Shown one piece after another: positions 5,481-58,480 of a stretch of DNA of 64,000 nucleotides (the first letter of the stretch is position 1; every line of letters begins with the position of its first letter). Made by a program: the position numbers and the translations under genes. Where the stretch lies: NCBI RefSeq assembly GCF_032854445.1, contig NC_088298.1, positions 14,805,504-14,869,503 of the forward strand. The letters are read 5' to 3'. The notes under the pieces were generated by a model. It had not been told where the DNA came from. It searched no databases and saw nothing but the letters and a program-made list of their open reading frames with translations. The DNA is from Liolophura sinensis. Its lineage: Eukaryota; Mollusca; Polyplacophora; Chitonida; Chitonidae.

Positions 5481-5489
5481 CCATCACAG

Positions 5490-5938
5490 TGCCTTTATTT
5501 TACTCCACAGTTTAACTCCCAGCACAGTATCTTTATTTTACGCCACAGTTTAACTCCCAGCACAGTATCTTTATTTTGCGCCACAGTTTAACTCCCAGCA
5601 CAGTGCTTTTATTTCCGCCACAGTTTAACTCCCAGCCCATTGCCTTTATTTTACGCCACAGTTTAACTCCCAGCACAGTGCCTTTATTTCCACCGCAGTT
5701 GTGGACTCCCAGCACAGTGCCTTTATTTTACGCCACAGTTTAACTCCCAGCACGGTGCCTTTATTTCCGCCACATTTTAACTCCCAGCACAGTGCCTTTA
5801 TTTCCGCCACAGTTTAACTCCCAGCACAATGCCTTTATTTTACGGCACAGTTTAACTCCCAGCACAGTGCCTTTATTTCCGCCACATTTTAACTCCCAGC
5901 ACAGTGCCTTTATTTACGCCACAGTTTAACTGCCAGAC
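5490..5938 (+). repeat. Minisatellite, ~37-bp unit, about 12 copies
   Basis: Unit CACAGTGCCTTTATTT(TA)CGCCACAGTTTAACTCCCAG with 35-38 base variants. The two variants (TTTTACGCC and TTCCGCC) alternate irregularly. A 60-codon frame on the minus strand is a by-product of the repeat. Confidence 0.9.
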
Positions 5939-6264
5939 AGTCTTTGTTGGCGGTCGAAATCACAGACTAGGCTTATACATTAACGGTCAAAAGTTACTAC
6001 ATCATCGCTAAAATTTGATACTGATATGTATCATTCACAGTGGAAATGTACATAACCGTTGGGAAAAGTTTTAACAATATTGGTCCTTTATACATTACTA
6101 TTCGTTGTAACATAATCTGCAAAAACTGTCAATAACTGGTTAGTGCAGTTACTAAAGTATTGGGTCGTCTTTCGTCTAAGTGAAACATCCTTGAGTACGG
6201 CGTAGACATCAGTCAAATCAAATAAAAACAGTATTGATATTTACTACATTATTAGTGACGACAG

Positions 6265-6440
6265 GCGTCCAGCATGAGAGGGATAGGCCAAGTCCCTGAC
6301 ATGCAGCATTGGTTCCGACTCGCTATAAGGAGACACTGTCGTCACATGCAACATTGGTTCCAACCCGCAATCAGGAGACACTGTCGTGACGTGCAGCATT
6401 GGTTCCGACCCGCTATAAGGAGAAACTGTCCTGATATGAC
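6265..6440 (+). repeat. Short tandem repeat, ~47-bp unit, three copies
   Basis: The unit contains CATGCAGCATTGGTTCC, CGCTATAAGGAGA and CTGTCGT, repeated three times with small changes. The open frame through it simply follows the repeat. Confidence 0.8.
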
Positions 6441-7669: not shown

Positions 7670-7788
7670 CCATGGTTTTCCCCGGGCTCTGCCCGGTTTC
7701 TTCCCACCATAATGCTGGCCGCCGTCGTATAAGTGAAATATTCTTGAGTACGGCATAAAACACCAGTCAAATAAATAAATAAAAATAC
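7670..7788 (+). mobile_element. SINE family A, partial (body and tail)
   Basis: Has the family A body (GGTTTC..CCCACCATAATGCTGGCCGCCGTCGTATAAGTGAAATATTCTTGAGTACGGC) and the AAATAAATA tail. The head is replaced by unrelated sequence. It ends about 150 bases upstream of the TLR pseudogene. Confidence 0.85.
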
Positions 7789-10847: not shown

Positions 10848-11036
10848 ATTTATTTATTTATTTATTTATTTGATTGGTGTTTACGCCGAACTCAAGAATA
10901 TTTCACTTATACGATGGCGGCCAGCATTATGGCAGGAGGAAACCGGGCACAGCCTGGGGGAAACCGACGACTATCCGCAGGTTGCTTGGAGACCTTCCCA
11001 CTTACGGCCGGAGAGGAAGCCAGCAAGACTCCGAGA
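10848..11036 (-). mobile_element. SINE family A, partial
   Basis: Tail of five TTTA units, GATTGGTGTTTACGCC, body to the CCGGAGAGGAAGCCAGCA region; the tRNA-like head is missing. The two open frames here are SINE sequence. Confidence 0.85.
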
Positions 11037-12301: not shown

Positions 12302-12569
12302 GGGGCCGCCGTTGCTAAGTTGGTTATCGCGCTAGCGCAGCGTAATGACCCAGGAACTCTCACCAATGCGGTCGCTGTGAGTTCAAGTCCAGCGCATGCT
12401 GGTTTCCTCTCCAGCCGTACCTGGGAGGGTCTGTCAACAGCTTGCAGATGGTCGTGGGTTTCACCCGGGCGCTGCCCAGTTTCCTCCCACCATAATGTTG
12501 GCCGCCGTCGTATAAGTGAAAGATTCTTGAGTACTGCGTAAAACACCAATCAAATAAATAAATAAAATC
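12302..12569 (+). mobile_element. SINE family A, full length
   Basis: The tRNA-like head has an A-box region (GCTAAGTTGGTTATCGCGC) and a perfect B box (GAGTTCAAGTCC). The conserved body and an AAATAAATA tail follow. Pol III-type organisation. Confidence 0.9.
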
Positions 12570-19264: not shown

Positions 19265-20222
19265 AAGAGATCCCACAAAGATACACACCGGTGAGAACAA
19301 ATTGTACAAGATATACAATGGTAAAAAAATTTTACATGATACACAATGGTGAGAACAAGTTGTGAAAGATATACAATGATAAAACTTGTCCATGACACAC
19401 ACTGGTGAGAACAAATTGTACAAGATATACAATGGTAAAAAAATTTTACATGATACACATTGGTGAGAACAAGCTGTACAAGGTATACAATTATGAAAAG
19501 AAATTGTACATGGTACACACTGGTGAGAACAAATTGTACAAGATATACAATGGTAAAAATTGTACATGATACACACCGATGAGAACAAATTGTACAAGAT
19601 ATACAATAGTAAAAATTGTACATGATACACACCGATGAGAACAAATTGTACAAGATATACAATAGTAAAAATTGTACATGATACACACCGATGAGAGCAA
19701 ATTGTACAAGATATACAATGGTAAATATTGTACATAAGACACACAGGTGAGAACAAATTGTACAAGATATACAATGGCAAAAATTGTACATGATACACAC
19801 CAGTGAGAACAAATTGTACAAGATATACAATGGTAAAAATTGTACATAATACACACCGGTGAAAGCAAATTGTATAAGATATACAATGGTAAAAATTGTA
19901 CATGATACACACCGGTAAGAACAAATTGTACAAGATATACAATGGTAAAACTGTACATGATACACACAGGTGAGAACAAGTTGTGAAAGATATACAATGG
20001 CAAAAAAATGATACACTGGCGAGAACAAATTGTACAAGATATACTATGGTAAAAATTGTACATGATACACACCGGTAAGAACAAATTGTACAAGATATAC
20101 AATGGTAAAACTGTACATGATACACACAGGTGAGAACAAGTTGTGAAAGATATACAATGATAAAAATTGTACATGATACACACCGATGAGAACAAATTGT
20201 ATAAGATATACAATGATGCATC
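19265..20222 (-). repeat. Minisatellite, 56-bp unit built from two ~28-bp halves, about 17 copies
   Basis: Plus-strand unit: ACAAATTGTACAAGATATAC AATGGTAAAA, then ATTGTACATGATACACACCG GTGAGA. The two halves both start AAATTGTACA(A/T)GATA(T/C)AC, so the 56-mer is a dimer of an older 28-mer. A few units are shortened. Because the unit has no stop on the minus strand and 56 is not a multiple of 3, long frames (374, 258 and 249 codons) run through the array in all three frames. They end in unique DNA at about 19103 and start at the array border. These are repeat artefacts unless transcription is shown. Confidence 0.92.
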
Positions 20223-22081: not shown

Positions 22082-23905
22082 CTAATGTAAAGCGTTTGTA
22101 AGATTTCTCCAGAAAATGACCTGTTCCTCCAGATCAGCGCTCCACTTCAGGAAGGTGATCTTGTGCCACAGGTTTCTCAGCGCCTTCGGCATGTGACGAA
22201 CTGGAATGTCCTCCATCAGTACACACAATATAATGTCGTCCCTGCCGTCGCTCAGACATTTCATGCCGGCGTACTCGATTTCTAGTGGCCCGTAGGTCGA
22301 TTCCAGAAAATGTTGGCTGATAATCAGGAGAATTTTGCGACTTTCTCTCATTTTGTCAACGATATTTTCGTGGATCGGTTTCCCCGGTGTAAAATCTCTG
22401 TCGTGGATGCAGAGTTTGAAAGTATTCTCACGTAACTCGAGATTGGGACGTAGCTGTTGGGAAACCCATTCCCTATCTTCAGCTGTGTAAGCCACAAAAG
22501 CATCGAAGACATACTCCTGCTCAGCAAACATGTCTTTCGGAGGCTGAAGTCGTGTATACAGCCAGTACCTGAGATTTAGACGGTAGCGATATATAATAAC
22601 AAGCAACAATATCAAGATGGAAATAGTCGCAGTTGCAACCACTGATATTATTATATATGTTGAGCTCACACAGCTGACCTCAAAATTCCTAAGGCGTTTG
22701 CTGAATTCAAGAATCGCCTTCCGGGATCCATTAGACAGGAGGCATGTGTAATTTTCTGGGTTATCCAAGTTATCTTTTCTGTTTTCTATCCAGCGGATGA
22801 ACAAGACGGTGTCACAAGTACACTGTAAAGGGTTTCCATCCATGATCAGCAAAAAAGGTTTCTCTTTGCTAGCTCTGACGATCCAACGATCAATCAATGC
22901 AGTTTCGTCTGTCTGAAGATAAGTAAAGGCATTACTGGATATGTCCAACCGCTGTAACCCGGCTAAATGTGAAATGGCACTGGGCAGTCGCTGTAAACTG
23001 TTTCTTGCCAGATTTATTTTCAGAAGTCGTTTGTTGTTTTGAAAAAGTTGGGGATGTAATTCAAATATTTTGTTTCCTGACAAGTCGATGTTCTCCAAGA
23101 CATCAAGAAGTTCGAAGGATGTTAAGGACGAATTGGAAACGTCTAGTTCTAATGAGTTGGATAGCGAAAGTATTTTAAGATTTCTGAGATTCTGGAAATA
23201 CTCCTTCTTTATGTAGGAACATCTTATTCCTGAAATATCCACCTCCGTTAAATTATCAACACCCCTTATCATTGACCGTACACATTTATCGAGATTGTTG
23301 TATGCAAAGCTTAAAGACCTAAGGTTACCTCCATTATGAACTCTTACGATGACTCTCAAATCTGTCCAAGTACTGACTGCACTCAAATCGACTTTTTCTA
23401 ATGAAGATGGTATAAATAGGTTGTATGGCCTAAGGCCCACTGATTCCTGGAGGTTTGGTCTGGGATGAGAGTACTGCACATAGTGACCTCCAACTTCTGG
23501 AATGCCAAACCCATGGCTTACGTCAGCTGACTTTAAGACCTTTAAGGCCAACACAACTTTAAATAAATCTTCTGGAACGCACCGTAAAGAATGGTAAGAC
23601 ATGTTGAAATGTTGCAAACACTTGCTTAATTCAAAAACTTCAGGAACGTTGGTAAAGGAATTATAAATGTAGTTTTCAGATAAATCTAACGATTTGATAC
23701 ACGTATTTAGTAGGATAACCAAACTAGCAGAGTGTACCACGAACTGGGCATCTTTCTTACAGGTGACGTTATTTAGACGAGCTAATCTGATTTCTTTCAT
23801 CTCACGTTTCTCACTTTTCTTTTGAAAAGGATGCAGCGAATTGATGGCCTGATTCAGCCCTATATCCATATTATCTGAAAGATCAAGTGTGTCTAACGAA
23901 GTCAA
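22082..23905 (-). CDS. TLR C-terminal segment: LRRs, LRR-CT, TM, TIR
   Basis: 607 residues open without any stop. There are LRRs with regular LxxLxLSxN spacing, then the C-terminal LRR cap, a single TM helix followed by basic residues, and a full TIR domain. There is no ATG at the junction with the upstream frame (the first codon is TTG), so this is the continuation of the upstream frame and not an independent gene. Confidence 0.9.
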   Translation of the reverse strand: MTSLDTLDLSDNMDIGLNQAINSLHPFQKKSEKREMKEIRLARLNNVTCKKDAQFVVHSASLVILLNTCIKSLDLSENYIYNSFTNVPEVFELSKCLQHFNMSYHSLRCVPEDLFKVVLALKVLKSADVSHGFGIPEVGGHYVQYSHPRPNLQESVGLRPYNLFIPSSLEKVDLSAVSTWTDLRVIVRVHNGGNLRSLSFAYNNLDKCVRSMIRGVDNLTEVDISGIRCSYIKKEYFQNLRNLKILSLSNSLELDVSNSSLTSFELLDVLENIDLSGNKIFELHPQLFQNNKRLLKINLARNSLQRLPSAISHLAGLQRLDISSNAFTYLQTDETALIDRWIVRASKEKPFLLIMDGNPLQCTCDTVLFIRWIENRKDNLDNPENYTCLLSNGSRKAILEFSKRLRNFEVSCVSSTYIIISVVATATISILILLLVIIYRYRLNLRYWLYTRLQPPKDMFAEQEYVFDAFVAYTAEDREWVSQQLRPNLELRENTFKLCIHDRDFTPGKPIHENIVDKMRESRKILLIISQHFLESTYGPLEIEYAGMKCLSDGRDDIILCVLMEDIPVRHMPKALRNLWHKITFLKWSADLEEQVIFWRNLTNALH

Positions 23906-24600
23906 GGGATCAAAGGTACCGTTTCTACGGTATTAATACCACAATTGATCAGTCGTAGTTCCGTAATGTTCATTCCCCGCAAGGCGCTAAAGGTAGAATT
24001 TTTCAACGCGCCAAGTGTACACTTGTTATCTTGTCTCATCCGATTCGCGGTAGAAATTGTCTTTAGTTTAGTCAACTTACTAAATTCATTTCCGAAGATA
24101 AATTCACTGGGGAAATCGATGTAGAGTTTGGTTAGATTCATTAGTTTCCCAAAAGTCTGGTCAAGACCTTCCCATTTGTGAGTTGTTGGGACATTTTGAA
24201 TGCGTATCTCTTTCAGAGCAACAAGTGGCTCGAACAGTTCTGGTGTCATTACATCTGGAGTGATCTCAAATTCATTTCGCGACAGGTTCAAAATGGCCAA
24301 ATTACCTAGACCACGAAATGCTCCGGTTTCCAGATGAGCTATACCGTTGTCCGATAGATCCAAATATTTCAAAGCTGAGTTTTGGGAAAATGTTTCGTTT
24401 TTTATTCTCTCGAAGTTGTTGCCGCTAAGGTCGATTCCTTTGGCATTGGCGAAGTCGACATTTTCTATTGGAACATGATGAAGCGCACGAGAGCTACAGT
24501 CCAGGAAATTTCTGGTTGAATCGAAGTTGCAGGGAGAGCTAGCCACTTCCCAAGCAGATGACAACCTGACCATAAAGACTGATATTACGTGAACCGCCAT
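22082..24600 (-). CDS. Toll-like receptor, single exon, interrupted by one frameshift
   Basis: A membrane receptor of the Toll family. It would sense ligands through its extracellular LRRs and signal through a cytoplasmic TIR domain to MyD88-type adaptors (family knowledge). The ATG at 24600 opens a hydrophobic signal peptide, followed by a Cys-containing N-terminal cap and many LRRs with the LDLSxN pattern. One C-terminal LRR cap (CxC plus two later Cys) lies near 22665-22840, a TM helix rich in Ile/Val/Leu near 22580-22660, and the TIR domain at about 22082-22510. The TIR has box 1 (FDAFVAY), box 2 with the BB-loop Pro (RDFTPG) and box 3 (FW). A single cysteine cluster next to the membrane marks the sccTLR (vertebrate-like) class. 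The gene is intronless, about 838 residues in total, a normal TLR length. Frame is lost once at about 23905-23925: the first frame stops after 232 residues and the remaining 607 continue in another frame. All other domains are intact, so this is a recent null allele or a one-base sequencing error. Confidence 0.93.
23902..24600 (-). CDS. TLR N-terminal segment up to the frameshift
   Basis: This frame carries the signal peptide and the first LRRs and has 232 codons before a TGA. The last residues before the break still follow the LRR pattern, and the next LRR continues without a gap in the neighbouring frame. The stop is therefore a consequence of a one-base indel in a short T run (A run on the plus strand), not a natural end. 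If the indel is real, the product would be a secreted LRR fragment without TM or TIR. Confidence 0.85.
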   Translation of the reverse strand: MAVHVISVFMVRLSSAWEVASSPCNFDSTRNFLDCSSRALHHVPIENVDFANAKGIDLSGNNFERIKNETFSQNSALKYLDLSDNGIAHLETGAFRGLGNLAILNLSRNEFEITPDVMTPELFEPLVALKEIRIQNVPTTHKWEGLDQTFGKLMNLTKLYIDFPSEFIFGNEFSKLTKLKTISTANRMRQDNKCTLGALKNSTFSALRGMNITELRLINCGINTVETVPLIP

Positions 24601-26490
24601 CTCAGTGGTTTTTCCTATTAAAGGAATGTGTGCGTTAGACGATTGTTAGTAGCATTACCAAAGTTACATGTAAAACGCTACATTTAGTTGGGCATACTGA
24701 TTTTGCTAAATTGTCTTAAGAGGTACGTTGGACATGTGTTTAAAGAGAGACGAAAATTTTGCTGAACTTAAAAGTAACAAACACCGTGGCCTTAACTTCA
24801 GCTCCTCTAACTAATTTCCTCAATAGTGTTCATTATACTTACAGTTCTGTTCACATTCCAATTGTCATTCCAAGTGTATCGTGCCAAAAATCTCAACGCA
24901 GCTTACATACAAATGTGCCGGTAAATTTCTAACACCAGTGCTCTTTTTTGCGCATTCTTTTGGCCTGGTATTATAAATTCGTTGTCGGTGATGACGAGGT
25001 AATAAAAGAATAGTAAACTAGGAACTGTTTCCGGTTTGGTGCCTATTAACAATTGACGGGAAATAACATCGTTTTCGAGTCGTGCCGTGTCGGGCGTGCG
25101 CCACGTGATGGCAAATCAGACAATGAGTGAGTAGGTAGCGATTTGACTACACCAGGGCTCTATCAAGAGGAGGGTCATTTGAAAACTGGTTTAAGAATTT
25201 CGAGTTGTCCTACTTTCTGCGAGACCATAGGTCAGTTATCACTCTTAATGTGTTTCCCTCGCTTGATCTTTCGTTTGTACAGAGTTACTAGATGTAGATG
25301 AACGTTTACAAATGTCTTAAAAGACTCATAGTTCTATATTTCATCACTTCAGCATTTTTTTTATTTTTACCCACTTCTACGTAAACCATGGTACTAGGGG
25401 CTGGTAATTTGCTGCTGTTTTAGCACTGGCATGAACAGATGGAATAACACCATGACTGAGGTAAATTGACAATCAATCTGGCCCAGGAAGAATTTACCTT
25501 TTGTTTGTGTGATTCTTCACGTTTCCTTGTTACGGACTGTTCACGACATCGGTATATTTATAGCGGTGACTGGGGACGTGACATAATACGCCCCAACAAG
25601 TCCCACTATACTGACATCATGCCGACCGATACTTTCCTATGAAAAACAATCAAATTTGAACTATTATTTTGAATATGCGACACCTACGTTGGGTAGGGAT
25701 ATAACCTGGGGCCAATTTCATAAAGCTGCTTATATATACGGAATAAAACTACCGTGCGGAAAATTTACACAGGTGCATTTGCCAAGTCAATGCCAATTTT
25801 ACAAACCTCTCTGTGTAACTTTGCGCAAATTTCTCTGTACTTTTCTCCGTAAAAGAAGGTCCATTTTTGGATGTCTTTATAGATAGACGTGTTACGAAAA
25901 CCAGAAATGGGTTAGTGCTTACGCAAGCGAGTACATACCGCGGCAGCTTGTGCAGGGTGCTTGTATGTTAGAGGTACGCGGGGTTAATTTCATTGTCACC
26001 TGTTGGGACATTCACTTCAAATCATTGCTTTTGTACGTTCATTTTACATCCCAGCTGGTTTTGATGAAGTTTAATGTTATAGCGCTGGAAGTTCACTGAA
26101 TTTTCGTAGTGCAGGCGATGGATAACGTACTCCGATGTGACGTCAGGCGGGAAGAAAATGGCGGTCGGGAGTTGACAACACGAATTTACGACCAAGAGGT
26201 TAGAAATGTTCAGATATGGAGGACTGTAAGGTATAATTTACAACTGGATTAGGTAAAACAGATCGTCGAGGTCAGTTGCTGCTTGTATCGGTGCATTTCA
26301 TGAACTGACACTTGTTTATTTTTTTCAGTGTGAACCGTTTACTCAAGTTTTCAGATGGAAAACGAAAGGAGTCATGCAAGGCCTTATCAGATTTTCTCTT
26401 AATGTTTGCCCTCTGCTTGTTAACCGAGCAAATATTGTACTCAACAAATACAAGTGTAAAGCATACTGTTTAGCTGATGTGGTTGCATTT
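24601..26490. other. Upstream region of the TLR; no further gene seen
   Basis: Contains the TLR promoter by position, but I could not identify a TATA box or NF-kB-type site with confidence. Confidence 0.4.
25640..25870 (+). repeat. Probable interspersed repeat (GGGGCCAATTTCATAAAGC type)
   Basis: Contains GGGGCCAATTTCATAAAGCTGC, a start resembling common mollusc short DNA elements, then a low-complexity ACCTCTCTGTGTAACTTTGC stretch. A short open frame through it looks non-coding. Confidence 0.35.
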
Positions 26491-28104: not shown

Positions 28105-28373
28105 CTACTTTCTAAATTCTACATCGCACACTTGTGCTATATGATCTGACGGGAACACGATGCTGGGCAGAGCTGTGTGCAATGTGACGTCTTCTTCATC
28201 AGGGTTGGGCACGACGCTTTGCACCTTAAGTCCCGATGTATCCACGTAAACATAGTCCAGGGTTCCACAGAACCCACCGACAAAGTTTGTGTACACCGGG
28301 TAGCCACATCCGCTCTCCATGACGAAAGGATGCCGGAAACCATCCTCTAGATCCAATGTTTCTTCAGCTCCCC
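28105..28373 (-). CDS. PDE12: PDE12 exon 7 (SDH motif and stop)
   Basis: The acceptor (ctcaacag) completes the split Gly codon. The exon encodes the YTNFVGGFCGTLDY segment and PSDHIAQVCDV with the catalytic His, then stops. Confidence 0.92.
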
Positions 28374-31300
28374 CTGTTGAGAGAGGGAGGCAAATCAATT
28401 CCGATCCAAACTTGACTGAGTACGTGTTCCAAACATTAACATTACAACTTTCTACGTTACCTACAGCTTCTTGTATGTATCCAAATGCAAATGATCTATA
28501 TAAATGAAAACGTTGGAAAAAATCTATACAAGAAAAAAAAGGGGGGGAAAAAAAAGGGGTGGGGGATTTTTACAAACCAAAGCTTTCACATTATTATTAT
28601 GCTGCACGTCGACAACTGTTCTGGTACATCTAAACGCACAAGGCACGCTGGGAGTAATCAGTTCTTACCTACTGTCCAGTCTGTATGGTCAGCAGAGATT
28701 TGACCCGTGGTCATGTACTCATTGACCCCAACAGGTGGGACGCTGTTAAAATCTCCACAGAATACAAGGGACACCTGCTTACCCTGGAAAACATGGAAAA
28801 ACACTGCCATTATCCAAGTGACATTTGTAATTCTTACACAACACTATACTCGTATCTGGTAAAAGGAAAAATGGAATTTGTCCTCCAAAGTTCAATGAAG
28901 TTAAAACTTCAGATAGTAACAAGATTATTAAAGATAATTCAGTGTTTTGTTAAGGTGTTCTGTGCCTTGGAGTTTACCATGATAAGGTGTTCCATGCCTG
29001 TTTTGTGTACAGTGATCTAACGTTGTTCAGGTGTTCCTTACCTGTTCTGTGCACAGGAGTTTACTGTAATAAAGTGTTCCATACCTGTTCTGTGCTCTGT
29101 TATTTACTAATGTTCCAGTGTTCCTTACATGTTTTGTGTACAGTGATTTAACCTTGTTCAGGTGTTCCTTACCTTTCTGTGCACAGGAGTTTACTGTGAT
29201 AAGGTGTTCCATACCTGTTCTGTGCTCTGTTATTTACTAATGTTCTGGTGTTCCTTACATGTTTTGTGTACAGTGATTTAACCTTGTTCTGTGTACTGAG
29301 ATTTAACTGTAGTTTAACCTTGTTCGGGTATTGCGTACAGGCTCTGTGAACCATGATTTGCCTTGTTAAGGTGTTCCATACCTGTTGCGTGTAATGTGAT
29401 TTAACCTTGTTCAGGTGTTCCATACAGGTGATGATCTGAATCAGACGAACATGATTGGCTTTTGGGTGGAAGAACAGGTGTGTGTTAGCCACACAAACCA
29501 CCTCACCAGGTACATCAAGAGACTCCAGCACAGTTACCTGCATGACAAAGGGGAACTGATTTATTAATTCATAAACATGAAAGTTATTGCTGAGGAAAGT
29601 CACATCCAGAAATTCTAACAAGCACGTGTCTACTTCCGAGAAGTACATGTTCGTCGATCTATTCATTTATTTGTCTAACTGTTGTCAGTTTTACGGGTGA
29701 TCACAAAGAGTTTCACCTGAGAAGTAGGTTGATTTATTTATGTATTCGGATGTTGTTTCACCTGTACTTTGAATATTCAGAGCGATGCCACACCCAATAA
29801 CACTTATACAACAAAATACCTACTGCAATGGCATCTTCTATGTTGTATTAGAAAGAACGTTGACTGAATTTGGATGGGTACCATGCACATATGATGTGCG
29901 AACACTTATGCTCAGACAACAAACACACCTGAAGAACGGTTGTGCGTGAGAAAACCTTCTCCGTCAAACTCTCATTAGCAGACACTTTCTCATAGAGAAC
30001 AGTCAATGCAGCATTGTTCTTCAGCTCTTCTGTCAGAGTGATGTCATGCTGACCTAACAATCTGCAGACAAAAAAGTAAATAAAACAGCTAGAATACAAA
30101 AATTTTCAGTATTTCCACATTCTATATTTGAGTGAGTGAGTCTTAAGGGTTTAACGTTGTACTTAACAATTCTTCAGTCACATGAGCATAAAGGAGTCCT
30201 TAGAGTGAATGTACGTGTAATATGCCTCCTTGTTGCAGGACAGATTTCCACCACACTTATATCTAGTGCTGCCTCACTGAAATGACTTACCGAAGGCAAG
30301 TAAGCCACCCCACCCAAGCCATTATACTGATATAGGTCAACCTGTCATTGCACTATCTTGTTAATGCTTAACGCCAAGCAATGAAGCTACAACTTCTCTT
30401 TTAAGGTTGAAGTACTGTAGGTATTGAGATCAGGGTTTGCACACGTGTAAAGTACAATAACAGGAAATTGAATATTTCCTCGTCAATTGGGTGTGTGTAT
30501 ATGGAATACTGTAAATTACTTCCTCTTTTAAGGTCATTAAGGTGCGACGCGACCCAGGATTGACCCTGGATCTACCACGCCCGAAACAGACTTATATTTG
30601 TCCACATTACTGCCACTGCAAGACCCCTGTCAATGTATCTTCAGTGCTGCTTCACTGGATAATCACACCAAAGACACCAGATATGACACCAATGATTTTA
30701 ATTTACACATTATTCCCTTACTAGAGCTACACGTATAAAAGAGATGAAAGAAGAACAAAGTTACACTGGCAGCCTCCCCACATACAGACTTGCATGCCAT
30801 ATTGCTGAACAGGTAGACTTCCAGGAACATTAAACAGTAAAAGCAGGGGAAGTCCCTGCCCAAGGCCAGGATTGAACCTGGACCTTTACTCATTGAGTCA
30901 GATACTTCCCCTGAGCCTAACAATGAAGATAACAATTTATGTGTAACCCTGTTTGATCTCACTTTTTCCATGTATCACATTACTTTTTTAATTCATCATT
31001 TCAACAGCAGGGGAAGCAATCAACCTGTTTTCACTGAATTATCTCCCCTTACTTAATCTTCACTTTCAGGCTTCGCTGTGTTTCACCCACTTTGCTCTAT
31101 AAAAGTGTACTTTCAGACGGACGTAAGGGTTTTAAAACACCATTTTATTAATTCTGATAAGAATTTAATCACAACTTCAAAAAACGTGGCCCTCTCTATA
31201 GTGGATGAATTAATCAGAATCAAGCAAAATGTATCTCTTGAATGTTGAACTTGAACCAGAGACTATTATACTTTTTGCCCATAATGAATTCCATGCAAGC

Positions 31301-34300
31301 AAGCAAACAAATTTGCACTCACTTAAACTTTGACATTCTGAAGCAGGTCACCATGCCCTCATTGACCTCACCGGCCTTTGACCTATGAAGTGACTCCAAC
31401 CCCAACATTTCAAAAAATGGCCGGATGTCATTTATGAAAACTTTTCTGTCCACTTCCTGAAGACATATCAAATCAGCGTTGTAGCCTGGAAAGACATGAG
31501 AATCCAAGACTGTAAACCCGATAGCAAACACAACATCATGCACAATTCATCATACATTAGTAAGCACTCCTACACAGTATAACATATACTATATTAATGA
31601 CACCAAACAGGACACTCTACACAGCACATGTGCAACATGTACAATTTGAATGACACCAAACAGGACACTACACAGCACATGTACAATTTGAATGACACCA
31701 AACAAGACACTCTACACAGCACATGTGCAACATATACAATTTGAATGACACCAAACAGGACCCTCCACACAGCATAACATGTAAAACGTACAATGTGAAT
31801 GACACCAAACAGGACACTCTACACAGCGCATGTGCAACGTACAATTTGAATGACACCAAATAGGACACTACACAGCACAGCATGTACAACGTAGTATTTG
31901 AACAACACCGAACAGGAAAATGTAATGTCCATGTACAACGAAACAATATAAATGACATTAAACAAGAAACCAACACAGTACGACATACCATCTGAACAAC
32001 ACAAAACTGCCACGCAGCGCAAATGAAATAAATATTTCTTTATTCATTTGATTGGGGTTTTACATCATACTCAATGATATCTCACTATTTATTTGAATAA
32101 TGTTCAACATTGTTCTCAACAGTTTTTCACTTTTATGAGGGTTGGTCAGGTTAGTAGATGGAGGAAACCCAAGCGACGGAGGAAATCCAAGTGATGGAGG
32201 AAACCCGAGTGATAGAGGAAACCCAAGTGATAGAGGAAACCTGAGAGATGGGGGAAACCCAGGCGCTTTGAGTATAAAACCACCAACCTTCCCCAGGTAC
32301 CTGACAAACCTCCCGACATTAAGCCCCAGCCAAATCAACGAGGGGTGGACTTGATAAAACAACCGGGCTGGCGAAAAGGCCTGAGAGTTGCAATGAGACA
32401 ATCCTTTAAATGAGTCTATAACACAAATAAAATTGAAGAGAAAACATATACAAATAAAGTAAAAACTTGGCTTACATTGGAGTTCCTTGACAAAAAGTTG
32501 TTTCCTGTAATCAATATGGAGAGCATATGGGGGGCAGTACGGGTAGAGAACATTTCGGGAGAAGTCAGAGTCTGCGTAGAGATCGGCCAGGATATTATAA
32601 GATACCACACGAAAACTGAAACACGAAAAAAGATATCATCTTCTAAACATTTTAACACACTGAATACTGTATTCCATTTCTGACTTACAAAGAAGAGTTT
32701 ACTCTAGAAGGCTACAAGGTATAAACAACCTATGTAAAGAAACCTTAACTTTCTGTCATCTTTACAGTGTACTTCTCTATATTTTAGATTCTGAAAATGA
32801 ACATTTAAAAATATTTCAATTAAACAATGGCAAAACAAAACAATCTTTTTTGTTTAGAGTATTACACACTTGTGACAGTGTAGATCGTTTCTTAACCTTT
32901 GTTTCTTAACCTTACGAGTGAAATACATATATTTATAACATTTTGCAACAGATTTTATGCTTGTTGGATTAGAGTAAGACCCACAGAAAGCTAAACACGG
33001 CTGTACTAGGATTCTGATAAATTACTGACCAACTGACAGTAATTTCTTGTCTGACTCCAGTTACATCCATCAGAGGATTTCTTAAGAATGGCTGTAGAAG
33101 TGTTATGTGGTAAACACCTGATGTTAAGTCACTGATCACAATATGGTCAGAAAATTTCACAGTAGAAACCAATATTTCAACTGCATTCTACTTGCTACAA
33201 AAAAAAAAAAAGACAGGAACTTATCCTTTGCTGGACACCATTGAATGGCCTTTCATATACTTCATAGTCTTATTTTCTCTGCCTTTAACATTTCAATGTA
33301 CCTGTCTTTATGACATATATACCTTCCTGATGGAGTAAGATCTTTGGTATGTTCACATCTTTTCTCAAATGGACACTTTCCAGGTCCAGCTTCAATCTCC
33401 ATCTCTGGTTCTATACTCACTTCATCCCCCGTCATTGTAGAGTTTCTGGGAGTACATGTCAGTTTTAGACGATGATTAATATGTGCGTTCAGTGGAGTGA
33501 AAACTCGCTCCGTACTAACCATAATCCACTCCTTCACCGTTTTCACTATATCTTTAGTCCCTGACTGTTTATTCTTTTTCTGTGAATTCCCTACATCACC
33601 ATTACATTTTTGGACTTCTGTATCACTCGCTTCTACGGCATTCTCAGTACAAGATTTCTTGGAATTTCCATTTTTTGTACTTTTCTCTTGATTCACCTTT
33701 CCCACATACCAACACATTTCACACGATTCCAAGTCGACAAACTCCAACTGCAGCCGCGGAAAAATTGGAAATCCTGCCATGAAACACTCTTGTAATTTCA
33801 TAGACTTGACTTTTGGTGGGTTAAAGATTATTGGTAATTTTTCAAAGGCTATTTGGAGAACACTCCCTTCTCTCCACGCGTCTTTATTTAACACTGTTTC
33901 TTCTATCCGGACATTATTTCTGAACAAGCCCAGTTCAACTAAATGCTCATCAGTTTCCTGTTCTTCTGCAGCAGCACCTGTATCATGCTCAGTGACTTTC
34001 TTCTTCTTTTTCCTCCTGGACTTGGACAGTTTATTTGTTACATTGGCTTGCAATCTTGTCAGACATTTCCCAAGTTCTTCATTTTGCAACCGATCCACGT
34101 TAAATATCCGTTCTTTTTTGCCGTCCAGACCGTACCTCAAACTGATGTGCACGCGTTCTTCGCCATCAACCATCCTTACTGTCACCCGTGATGCCATTGT
34201 CCGTTCGAATGCTAAATCAAAAAATGACAACTGTCTCTTTATATCCCGTAAAGTGCGACAAGATTTCACCAGAGTACGGAAACACATGGCAGCTGTTGAC

Positions 34301-34311
34301 ATCTCCAGCAT
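28105..34311 (-). CDS. PDE12: 2',5'-phosphodiesterase 12 (PDE12), seven exons
   Basis: In characterised animals PDE12 is a Mg2+-dependent nuclease that degrades 2-5A oligoadenylates and trims poly(A) tails in mitochondria. The exons are 33323-34311, 32476-32615, 31323-31485, 29929-30061, 29382-29537, 28669-28783 and 28105-28373. All have GT-AG borders with matching phases and sum to 1965 bases (654 residues plus stop). The EEP catalytic motifs appear in order: SYNILAD, ICLQEVD (metal-binding Glu), VANTHL, FCGDFNS (Asp and Asn) and SDH (catalytic His). The N-terminal half also follows the PDE12 layout, including FMAGFPIFPRLQLEF and EAGPGKCPF. The first ATG (34311) is followed by a basic, acid-free stretch compatible with a mitochondrial presequence. 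A candidate poly(A) signal (AATAAA on the minus strand) lies at about 27940-27945. Human PDE12 is about 609 residues. The introns hold three minisatellites. Confidence 0.93.
28669..28783 (-). CDS. PDE12: PDE12 exon 6 (GDFN motif)
   Basis: Encodes GKQVSLVFCGDFNS with the catalytic Asp and Asn. The acceptor is ttccag and the donor GTAG|GTAAG, phase 1. 115 bases. It is too short and split to appear as an ORF. Confidence 0.9.
28950..29430 (-). repeat. Minisatellite, ~44-bp unit, ~11 copies, in PDE12 exon 5/intron 5
   Basis: The minus-strand unit starts GTATGGAACACC or GTAAGGAACACC and ends in CAGAACAG or CAAAACAT. The last ~44 bases of coding exon 5 form one unit. Three unit types repeat in order, giving a ~130-bp higher period. 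At least five units carry CAG|GTATGG or CAG|GTAAGG, matching the 5' splice-site consensus. Confidence 0.85.
29382..29537 (-). CDS. PDE12: PDE12 exon 5 (ANTHL motif; 3' end is one unit of a minisatellite)
   Basis: Encodes VCVANTHLFFHP and RLIQI, then a 17-residue end (HLNKVKSHYTQQ). The chosen donor is CAACAG|GTATGG at 29381, phase 0, because only this donor joins exon 6 in frame and keeps the expected spacing to FCGDFNS. A donor-like GTATGG also occurs at 29425 but would give a TAA directly after splicing. The last ~44 bases of the exon are a copy of the repeat that fills the adjoining intron. Confidence 0.8.
29929..30061 (-). CDS. PDE12: PDE12 exon 4
   Basis: Encodes the segment starting LLGQHDITL and ending in TTVLQ. 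The acceptor is tctgcag and the donor CAG|GTGTGT, phase 0. 133 bases. Confidence 0.9.
30130..30592 (-). mobile_element. SINE family B, with an internal insertion
   Basis: Tail GAGTGAGTGAG, then GGGTTTAACGTTGTACTTAACAATT, CTTACCGAAGGCAAGTAAGCC and a tRNA-like head region (CCAGGATTGACCCTGGATCTACC). About 110 bases near 30420-30530 interrupt it and match, in reverse, the unit next to the 57-kb copy. In PDE12 intron 3. Confidence 0.75.
30720..30925 (-). mobile_element. SINE family C, head region
   Basis: Minus strand has a perfect B box (CCAGGTTCAATCCTGGCC) at about 30861-30880. The flanking CAGGGGAAGTCCCTGCCC resembles the segment at 41640-41700. Confidence 0.5.
31323..31485 (-). CDS. PDE12: PDE12 exon 3 (catalytic Glu)
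   Basis: Encodes YNADLICLQEVD with the metal-binding Glu. The acceptor is ttccag and the donor AA|GTGAGT, phase 2. 163 bases. The intron upstream (31486-32475) contains two minisatellites. Confidence 0.92.
31606..31990 (-). repeat. Minisatellite, ~51-bp unit, about 7 copies, in PDE12 intron 2
   Basis: Plus-strand unit AATGACACCAAACAGGACACTCTACACAGCACATGTGCAACGTACAATTTG with truncated variants. Cysteine/valine-rich frames on the minus strand are artefacts. Confidence 0.9.
32142..32270 (+). repeat. 18-bp tandem repeat, ~7 copies, in PDE12 intron 2
   Basis: Unit GATGGAGGAAACCCAAGC; an exact multiple of three, so it gives a GGNPSD-type frame that is not a gene. The core GAGGAAACCCGAGTGA is the body motif of family C, so the array probably grew inside such an element (32026-32350). 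Confidence 0.85.
32476..32615 (-). CDS. PDE12: PDE12 exon 2 (start of catalytic domain)
   Basis: The acceptor (tttcag) restores the codon split in exon 1 and gives SFRVVSYNILAD, the first conserved EEP motif. The donor is T|GTAAGC, phase 1. 140 bases. Confidence 0.92.
33323..34311 (-). CDS. PDE12: PDE12 exon 1 (presequence and N-terminal domain)
   Basis: The exon encodes the likely mitochondrial presequence, a Lys/Arg-rich linker (RRKKKKK near residue 103) and the N-terminal domain with FMAGFPIF. The donor is AG|GTATAT at 33322, phase 2. An open frame extends further upstream to a TTG at 34356, but the first in-frame ATG is at 34311; other ATGs at 34302 and 34287 are possible starts. Confidence 0.88.
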
Positions 34312-34679
34312 TGCCCCCTCCGTACATAGGAGAACACCAAAGGGAGATAAGCACAAACTGCATGGGCGCTTGCAAATGTGGTTGTAGGCATGTTAGAAAA
34401 AATACGAGTTAAGTTTCTCTGGAGGTCTGTGGAGTTTCTACCAGGCCTACAGATATACTTCCATGAAAGCGCATGTTACGTATTCGTCTCACTGACTGAT
34501 GGGACCTATTTTTCAGATTTATGAAACATACATTACCCGATAGTTACAGAAAAAAAGATAACTGAAATTGGGGGTACACGGACGTAATCTATGTAAATAA
34601 CTATCTGTTGTTGATCAACATAACGGCTTAGTATAAAGCCCAAAGCAAGGCTGGACGTTCCTGTCGTAACACCCAGCTT

Positions 34680-34807
34680 CTTTATTTATTTGATTGGTGT
34701 TTTACGCCGTACTCAAGAATATTTCACTTATACGACGGCGGCCAGCATTATGGTGGGCGGAAACCGGGCAGAGCCCGGGGGAAACCCACGACCATCCGCA
34801 GGTTCCC
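34680..34807 (-). mobile_element. SINE family A, 3' half
   Basis: Near-consensus TTTATTTATTTGATTGGTGTTTTACGCCGTACTC to CCACGACCATCCGCAGGTT; head absent. It lies about 370 bases upstream of the PDE12 start. Confidence 0.9.
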
Positions 34808-44200: not shown

Positions 44201-47200
44201 TAATGCACAGAAACCAACAAATAGATCGCAAAACTTAATCTGAAGCTTTACAAAATGAATTTCACACAATATCTTACAAAAATCTGACAATGTCTTGAGC
44301 AGTTGTTGCACGGTCACACAAACATATTCACATCCTGTGCGTTTTAGGATTCTGCTCCAGCTACTTCTCAAGATATGGGCAAATTACAGAAAATCTGATC
44401 CGCAGATCAAGAGATAAAGTAATTTCCACTGCTCAAAAGAGGGCGAGAGCGTATAAATACATTGATGTCGATAGCAATTTATCAAGCGTCATTAAAATAG
44501 AATGACTGAAAATGCTATGTTGTTATCACACTTAAACTTACTGGTATCTCATTTCATCAATGGCAGAAGATAAATGACGGGCGTCTTGATCACAGAGATA
44601 AAGGTTTTTGTCGTTTTCAGGAATGAGATCAGTGTCATGGAAAATAAAACAGTCGAAGTGTCCTACTTTCAGGGCTTCTTTGAAACCAACGTTCATCAGC
44701 TTTCCTCTATTGAAGAGATCGTTGCCAAACTGAAACATTAAAGAGTTACTGAATGATTAAGGTGGCTTATGCTAGATACATCAGTATTATATTTTATGAT
44801 ATAGATCAATTGCCTTAAAGTATTTAATGACATTATCGCTGTGATATAAACCGCAGTTTTTAGACATCACCGGTCTAGAGTTGTCAACACATTAAACATA
44901 CAACAACAGTAGGCCAGTGTTTTCAAAATCTTCAACCATATATACGATATCTGCGTGGCAAGAAATGGTACAAATGCACCTCAGTTACGATTTTATTGGT
45001 ACTGTTCGTATAAACACTGCAGTGGTATTAAAACCGTGCTATATCTACAAAGTTCCTAGTTCCGGGTTAAGCCGAATTGGAGACATACTTGCAAAGAATA
45101 GCCTCGTAGATCTCCTCGCTATGATTACACGTTATAATTAAGGGCTGAGATGTTTTGATGAAAGTTTAGACAATTTGAATGTAGGCGTTTGACAGTGAAG
45201 AAAATGCTGCTGCTTATAACAAAACAGGTTCAGGGGCCACTTGCACGAAGCCCTCTTAACGTTAAGAGCACGTAACTACCATGGCGACGTAATGCCCACA
45301 GAGCTGGCTGCCAGGTTATTTACGTGCTCTTAACGTTAAGATGGCTTCGTGCAAGTGGGCCCTGCTGTGGTAATTAATTATTTATTTTCTGTTATTTATG
45401 TATTTATTTGGTGTTTCACCTAGTGAGCGAGATAATTTGACTTACTTGAAGGTTGTGTGATCTATGAGTTTAAAAAAGCAACTACTATTGCTAGTTACCT
45501 GAAAAACACCTTGATATAAAGCTAAAGCAGGATTCGAACCCACTACCACAAGATTCCAAAGCTCCCAGATTTTAGGCCGAATCTATGGGATAACTTGATC
45601 TGTGCGGGGATCTTTTATAGACCTCCAGATTCGTTCTGATCACGGTACAACACGCCCCACCCACCTGCTCGATTACAAATATTCGGTAGTGAATCCTCTG
45701 TTTCTGTAACATTGGATGAAGGCGATTCAACAGAATCCGAAGGTGCTGCTCACGGTCTCGGTAAGGAACAATTATTGCCACCCTCTGCAGAGATTCACAG
45801 TTGGATGGTTGCCAGGTACCGCCTTCTTTTACATCTGTGTTATTGTGTTCTATCGCACAAAAGGTGGGAGAATGGAAGATATTGATCTTGGCCAACCCTG
45901 GAACAAAGCAAAATGAATGAGTTATATATCTGAGGTGAAAAATACTCAAGGCCAGGGAAGCAAAGTTTTTACATATTTTTACTGGGTATTTCATGCTGTA
46001 CGCCTAGCCATATTAGCAAGCTAGCACATAAACTTTGTCATTTGAGCCACTGGCCACTTCATTGGTCCACGAATAGTTGATGGTCCATATAGGCGCGAAG
46101 AGCACTCGGTTGGACAATGATTAAAACTGTAGTGAGACTTATTTCGAACTTCTTCTCACCATTTCAAATTTCAACACCATGATGATGCATATAAATCTTC
46201 TGTCCTTTGTAAAACGGAAAGGCTGGCTGGCCGCCGTCGTATAAGTGAAATATTCTTGAGTACGGCGTAAAACACCAATCAAAATAAATAAAAATAAAAC
46301 GGAAAGGGGCCTCCGTGGCTCAGTTGGTTAGCGCGCTGGCGCAGCGTAATGACCCATGAGTTTCTCACCAATGCGGTCGCTGTGAGTTCAAGTCCAGCTC
46401 ATGCTGGCTTCCTCTCCGGCCGTAAGCAGGAAGGTCTGTCAGTAACCTGCGGATGGTTGTGGGTTTCCCCCGGTCTGCCCGGTTTCCACCCACCATAATG
46501 CTGACCGCCGTCGTATAAGTGAAATATTCTTGAGTACGGCGTAAAACACCAATCAAATAAATAAATAAATAAGTAAAACGGAAAAATATTTCACACAATT
46601 CATATTGTTGCAAGGTTACTTGGTCTAATGCAAATACTTCCTTTTGACCTTTGTAGAAAGGGGGAATTACAAAAGTTCGTTTCCACAAATGTCCCAGGCT
46701 ACTTATAATGATGTATATGTACACAACTTATTTCGTCCTCTGTAAAGCGGAACAGTATTTCACAGAATCCATTTCCACAGCCTTGCAAGGTTACGTCTAT
46801 AATGATGTCTATACGGCCTCTTTCCGCTATACAAGGGCGGAATTACAAAAGTTCATTTCTACGCCGTACATTGATGTTTGTTTATAATTTTGTTTTTTTT
46901 TGTTTATATTTTTCTGCTTCTTTATGTCCACACCCGGGTAACTGACTGATTATGGTTGATAATACAGAAAGGTTTATCATCTGTAATGCGAAATAGTAAA
47001 CGGCTCATTTTTGATACTTTATACATTATAATGATATATCATTGATAATGATATATAGAGAAAGGTTTATCCTCGATAATGCAGAATTACAAAATCTCAT
47101 TTCCACACACCATACATCGTCATGCTTAGACTGTTTTTATTTATGACTTCGGTTTAGCAGAATTGCTCATAGAATTCACTTCCACATCATTGCAATGCAT

Positions 47201-58204: not shown

Positions 58205-58480
58205 CAGGGGGCCTCCGTGGCTCAGTTGGTTAGCTCGCTGGCGCAGCGCAATGGCCCAGGAGTCTCTCACCAATGCGGTCGCTGTGAGTTCAAGTCCAGC
58301 TCATGCTGGCTTCCTCTCCTGCCGTACGTGGGAAGGTCTGCAAGCAACCTGCGGATGGTCGTGGGTTTCCCCCGGGCTCTGCCCGGTTTCCTCCCACCAT
58401 AATGCTGGCTACTGTCGTATAAATGAAATATTTTTGAGCGGCGTAAAACACCAATCAAATAAAATAAATAAATAAAATTG
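58205..58480 (+). mobile_element. SINE family A, full length, only in the left arm
   Basis: CAGGGGGCCTCCGTGGCTCAGTTGG head, A and B boxes, full body, AAATAAAATAAATAAATAAA tail. It interrupts the sequence that is continuous in the right arm. It also has the ATAAATGAAATATTTTTGAGCGGCG variant, so it is closely related to the first SINE of the arm. Confidence 0.92.

Follow-up and report, generated by a model that had tools for sequence, protein, structure and literature searches.

How does a gene fare when the end of one of its exons, together with the splice donor that follows, is repeated in tandem along the adjoining intron? The question is raised by a PDE12-like gene on the minus strand of the window, the 64,000-nucleotide stretch of Liolophura sinensis DNA analysed here, in which a minisatellite with units of about 44 bp takes up about 430 nt of the 598-nt intron 5. 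An earlier note on this DNA had proposed that the array grew out of the exon end, laid down a ladder of competing donors, and could thereby tune the amount of functional enzyme. Such tuning is no more than possible; most likely, the array is a tolerated by-product rather than a selected regulator.

The PDE12-like gene and the array in its fifth intron

The gene extends over 28105..34311 on the minus strand and comprises seven exons with GT/AG borders (34311-33323, 32615-32476, 31485-31323, 30061-29929, 29537-29382, 28783-28669, and 28373-28105), the joined frame of which encodes 654 amino acids. The exon borders are those indicated by reading frame and homology, and the start codon was chosen within the frame of exon 1. 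Pfam places a PDE12-like_N domain in exon 1 and an Exo_endo_phos domain in exons 5-7, and comparison of the product of exons 5-6 with human PDE12 chains gives an E value of about 1e-18. The predicted protein has the make-up of a PDE12-like protein, an N-terminal domain followed by an exonuclease/endonuclease/phosphatase catalytic domain, and its best solved relative is human PDE12. A pattern search of viral contigs for relatives matched five stretches, none of which encodes a relative. Exon 5 (29382..29537, minus strand) is 156 nt long and in phase 0 at both ends, and intron 5 (29381..28784, minus strand) closes with a putative acceptor, CCAG, ending at 28784. Use of the first donor, at 29382|29381, gives a frame encoding a single uninterrupted PDE12-like protein.

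The array consists of head-to-tail units within the range of 10-100 bp that characterizes a minisatellite. At 28985-29425, Tandem Repeats Finder detects a period of 44 bp with 10.3 copies and 66% matches, which bears out the earlier description of an array of about 11 copies opening intron 5, and a higher-order 130-bp period with 2.3 copies and 94% matches at 28987-29289. The units were delimited by hand as U0, U1, U2a, a short U2b, and U3 to U9, ending at 28954. U0, the exonic unit (29381..29424, minus strand), joins the final 43 bases of exon 5 to the base that opens the intron, while the intronic part of the minisatellite (28945..29380, minus strand) holds U1-U9 and a short remnant of a unit at 28961-28945 (minus strand). 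With three or fewer mismatches allowed, a 17-base core of the unit matches the window eight times where 0.62 matches would be expected, and all eight fall within 28945-29421. Local alignment of exon 5 with intron 5 yields a score of 61, compared with a mean of 19.5 and a maximum of 30 for 300 dinucleotide shuffles and with no more than 25 for any of the 41 other exon-intron pairs in sense orientation. This result confirms the proposal that the end of exon 5 and its donor form one unit of the array.

Pairwise identity of the full units ranges from 27/43 to 42/44, and by eye and from the match table the units sort into three types, A, B, and C, with U0 belonging to type A. Arrays are generally error-prone in assemblies, and the one described here might be an assembly error or a collapsed repeat; the units are nonetheless diverged and distinguishable, which argues against artificial duplication, and an error of this kind is considered highly improbable. 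The true copy number may differ from that of the assembly. Two copies of a three-unit block of about 130 bp lie at 29289-29159 and 29159-29029. They are identical at 126 of 130 aligned positions, which marks the duplication of this block as the latest visible step in the history of the array.

Origin of the array and direction of copying

Alignment with homologues indicates that the array was likely derived from the end of exon 5. Human PDE12 aligns without gaps through the V of HLNKV, which covers half of U0 (22 of 44 bases); past HLNKV a low-confidence alignment follows, and after it a gap of three residues. For ANGEL2 and CNOT6, too, the alignment extends as far as this V before gaps set in. 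Because these homologues have coding sequence aligned at residues encoded by U0, copying from exon to array is favoured. The homology of the tail encoded by U0 is modest, in that its score is equalled by 383 of the 82,137 8-mers of the window, the tail included, and exceeded by four peptides translated from the intronic array; as a test of direction, this score speaks weakly for copying from exon to array and is not decisive.

U0 matches U5 at 38/44 positions and U8 at 37/44, compared with 32/43 for the adjacent U1. Since U0 is nearer to units in the middle of the array than to its neighbour, growth was not a simple outward march from the exon. The claim that the array grew from the exon end is partly supported, U0 being coding and aligned in the homologues. 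The same resemblance of U0 to mid-array units would suit the opposite course of events, in which a minisatellite of the intron spread into the exon, the donor moved, and the present exon end is an exonised unit. This course would also fit the stretch right after the aligned helix, which exceeds its human PDE12 counterpart by three residues. Coding sequence is nevertheless found in the homologues at the same place, gap-free across the first half of U0, and copying from array to exon is improbable. The second half of U0 could, from its alignment, be new.

The exon itself, 44 nt upstream of the first donor, reads CCT|GTATGG. The present donor seems to be a duplication junction, with CAG|G contributed by the exon end and TATGG by the coding bases 44 upstream. 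A short tandem duplication across the border of exon 5 and intron 5 would have copied the last ~44 bases together with the donor, slippage or unequal exchange would have extended the array into the intron, and the doubling of the ~130-bp three-unit block would be the most recent visible event.

Donor-like sites along the array and their predicted products

Donor-like sites were scored at the 508 sense-strand GT dinucleotides of the gene with a matrix of human donor frequencies that gives approximate ranks, and array sites scoring above 2 were counted. The first and putatively productive donor, CAG|GTATGG (29376..29384, first intron base 29381, minus strand), has a score of 4.95 and a U1 duplex energy of -7.7. 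Six further sites on the minus strand lie downstream of it: CAT|GTAAGG at 29253..29261 (first intron base 29258, +123 nt), CAG|GTATGG at 29209..29217 (29214, +167 nt), AAG|GTAAGG at 29167..29175 (29172, +209 nt), CAT|GTAAGG at 29123..29131 (29128, +253 nt), CAG|GTATGG at 29079..29087 (29084, +297 nt), and CAG|GTAAGG at 29036..29044 (29041, +340 nt). The ladder of donors postulated earlier is thus present as a row of donor-like sites from 29381 to 29041. Five units with good donors can be recognized, as had been stated, if the exonic unit is included, but strict CAG is found in four of them and the fifth reads AAG|GTAAGG. Two weaker sites on the minus strand stand outside the six, CCT|GTACGC at 29338 (+43 nt, leading to a stop in exon 6), which scores below 2, and AAG|GTTAAA inside U0 (first intron base 29405, -24 nt).

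The matrix and U1 duplex energy agree on the two best sites, and by both measures 29041 ranks first and 29172 second of the 508 GT. The first donor shares 7th place by the matrix and 13th by U1 duplex energy with the two sites of identical sequence at 29214 and 29084. Donor density is high, with five sites scoring at least 4 in 432 nt, the first donor included, against 0.36 expected; 0.2% of windows are equally dense, the background windows including the array itself. The putative donors of the gene are often weak, with matrix ranks of 5, 7, 10, 21, 22, and 58, so that rank alone is no predictor of use. As a separate observation, the putative acceptors of introns 5 and 4 directly abut donor-like sequence on the minus strand, AG|G|GTAAGC at 28782 and CAG|GTAACT at 29537, which rank 6 and 12 of the 508 GT and resemble stepwise-splicing sites.

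Use of five of the six downstream sites is predicted to truncate the protein, with loss of the C-terminal catalytic part. The expectation that a unit whose length is not a multiple of three would make donor choice shift the frame holds for four of the six sites but not for those at +123 and +297, which keep it; the latter runs into a stop. After splicing at 29214 or 29172, the shifted frame reaches a stop in exon 6 that lies 45 nt ahead of the last junction, while the extensions produced by splicing at 29128, 29084, or 29041 contain a stop 158 to 245 nt before that junction. Nonsense-mediated decay follows a rule that relates the position of the stop to the last junction, with a threshold of 50-55 nt. 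The last three sites would fit such decay.

These predictions bear on the proposal that the array acts as a rheostat, in which strong downstream donors would take a sizeable share of splicing and yield products without the catalytic C terminus. It draws on the location within the array of the gene's two top-ranking donor-like sites, both of them protein-breaking, on the fit of three downstream sites to nonsense-mediated decay, and on the donors of the IFI6 array, which are reported as used. Against it, the stops reached from 29214 and 29172 lie short of the 50-55 nt of the decay rule, so the products of two of the five truncating sites may escape decay. Competition of this kind is unlikely on the whole. 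No greater likelihood attaches to its extension, in which copy number would set the amount of PDE12 and alleles of differing length would differ in output; the product of the first donor is unaffected by array length, so length could act only through competition. Still less probable is a more specific version, in which the exon end multiplied its own donor to form a length-variable device for unproductive splicing, the strongest sites giving dead products. Its corollary, that copy number changing in steps of ~130 bp sets the amount of PDE12, is to be viewed with the same strong doubt.

An array that diversifies the protein has also to be considered. The site at +123 nt is in frame and open to the normal stop, and its use would create a working isoform beside the normal one, extended by 41 residues ahead of the catalytic GDFN strand. 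The site itself (CAT|GTAAGG) has a T at -1, with a score of 3.81 (rank 16 of 508) and a U1 duplex energy of -4.9 (rank 64 of 508), and 41 open codons are by our estimate not rare by chance. A functional isoform from this site is very doubtful.

Two other mechanisms were rejected. If splicing proceeded recursively or stepwise from one AG|GT of the array to the next, acceptors would be called for, and the 20 nt upstream of five array AGs contain 6 to 10 pyrimidines, compared with 15 to 16 for the six putative acceptors of the gene; lacking a pyrimidine tract, the AG|GT sites of the array resemble donors, not acceptors. Masking of the donors by RNA structure was set aside as well, since the RNA of the array shows no more structure than its shuffles (z = +1.67; an equal or better fold in 96 of 100 shuffles) and no obvious structure hides the sites.

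The explanation preferred here, with a probability of roughly 0.6, is a neutral minisatellite that would have been seeded by duplication across the exon/intron border and that leaves the first donor productive at the cost of some mis-splicing. The normal mRNA would be made with the donor at 29382|29381, and the downstream donors, two of which have a better consensus, would serve a minority of transcripts with mostly truncated or unstable products. That their use is confined to a minority is a guess, because these two sites outscore the first donor on both measures. Such arrays are common here, as several other minisatellites in the window attest.

Precedents and other features of the window

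The closest precedent is the human gene IFI6 (6-16, G1P3), for which Turri, Cuin and Porter (1995, NAR 23:1854) reportedly described a minisatellite with multiple splice donor sites. According to one account, two downstream repeat units of IFI6 act as donors, giving rise to three mRNA species (PMC4526556). The two loci share a tandem array at an exon end with donor sites in downstream units and differ in that donor use is reported for IFI6, while the PDE12-like array is known from its sequence. The IFI6 repeat unit is short and keeps the frame, whereas the unit of the PDE12-like array, at ~44 bp, is not a multiple of three and five of its six downstream sites are predicted to break the protein. 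The PDE12-like array belongs to the IFI6 kind in its anatomy, with units carrying a donor consensus beside the exon end.

Introns are documented to arise when a segment that spans an exon/intron border, or one that contains AGGT, is duplicated in tandem (the Rogers model), with potato RdRp (PMC4974935) and Drosophila near intron pairs (PMC2891723) as examples. The model resembles the present case in that exon sequence is copied into an intron and what was once exon sequence provides a donor. It differs in that no new intron is seen at the PDE12-like array and about ten copies are present instead of one. The model has a duplicated AGGT supply both donor and acceptor; in the PDE12-like gene, the putative acceptor of intron 5 lies outside the array and the array AGs are pyrimidine-poor. 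Intronic VNTRs are also said to affect splicing in a paper on an hTERT VNTR, which cites Turri 1995 (PMC2915984). That case is likewise a minisatellite inside an intron, and the part of the paper at hand does not state whether an exon end lies in the repeat (PMC2915984).

A search of an open library of papers found none joining PDE12 with a minisatellite. The earlier remark that no such case was known for PDE12 agrees with this, but the array is not new in kind, given IFI6. Its anatomy is of a known type, and what sets it apart is the position within the array of the gene's two strongest donor-like sites, which are predicted to be unproductive. If the downstream donors are used, the locus offers a natural experiment on donor choice, with similar exon ends in series and of graded strength, and a route from minisatellite mutation to altered gene output. 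If they are unused, the spliceosome can hold to an upstream donor despite better-scoring copies 209 and 340 nt away.

Two further minisatellites lie in intron 2 of the PDE12-like gene, at 31581-31917 (~53 bp units) and 32157-32261 (~18 bp units), and comparison of the exons with intron 2 gave no match above the chance level of the exon 5 shuffles. Elsewhere in the window, minisatellites occur at 19280-20215 (56 bp), 5481-5941 (38 bp), and 6299-6430 (45-bp units). The unit length of the last is a multiple of three, and one plus-strand frame is open throughout for about 70 codons. A dispersed repeat is found at 7671-7787 and in at least 26 further places, e.g., 12455-12567, 34678-34786, and 58364-58472. 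Among the matches listed, its copies are about 70-115 bp long at these positions and up to 181 bp elsewhere (10849-11028), 79-94% identical, and on both strands, a SINE-like size. A search of the whole window against Rfam at gathering scores returned 0 matches. A Toll-like receptor gene with leucine-rich repeats and a TIR domain occupies 22082-24645 (minus strand) in two overlapping frames (23902-24645 and 22082-23932), a split to be explained by an intron, a sequence frameshift, or a pseudogene. An exon-like frame at 45572-46003 (minus strand) matches Pfam Glyco_transf_7N (E 9.7e-29), the N-terminal region of group 7 glycosyltransferases, and presumably belongs to a beta-1,4-galactosyltransferase.
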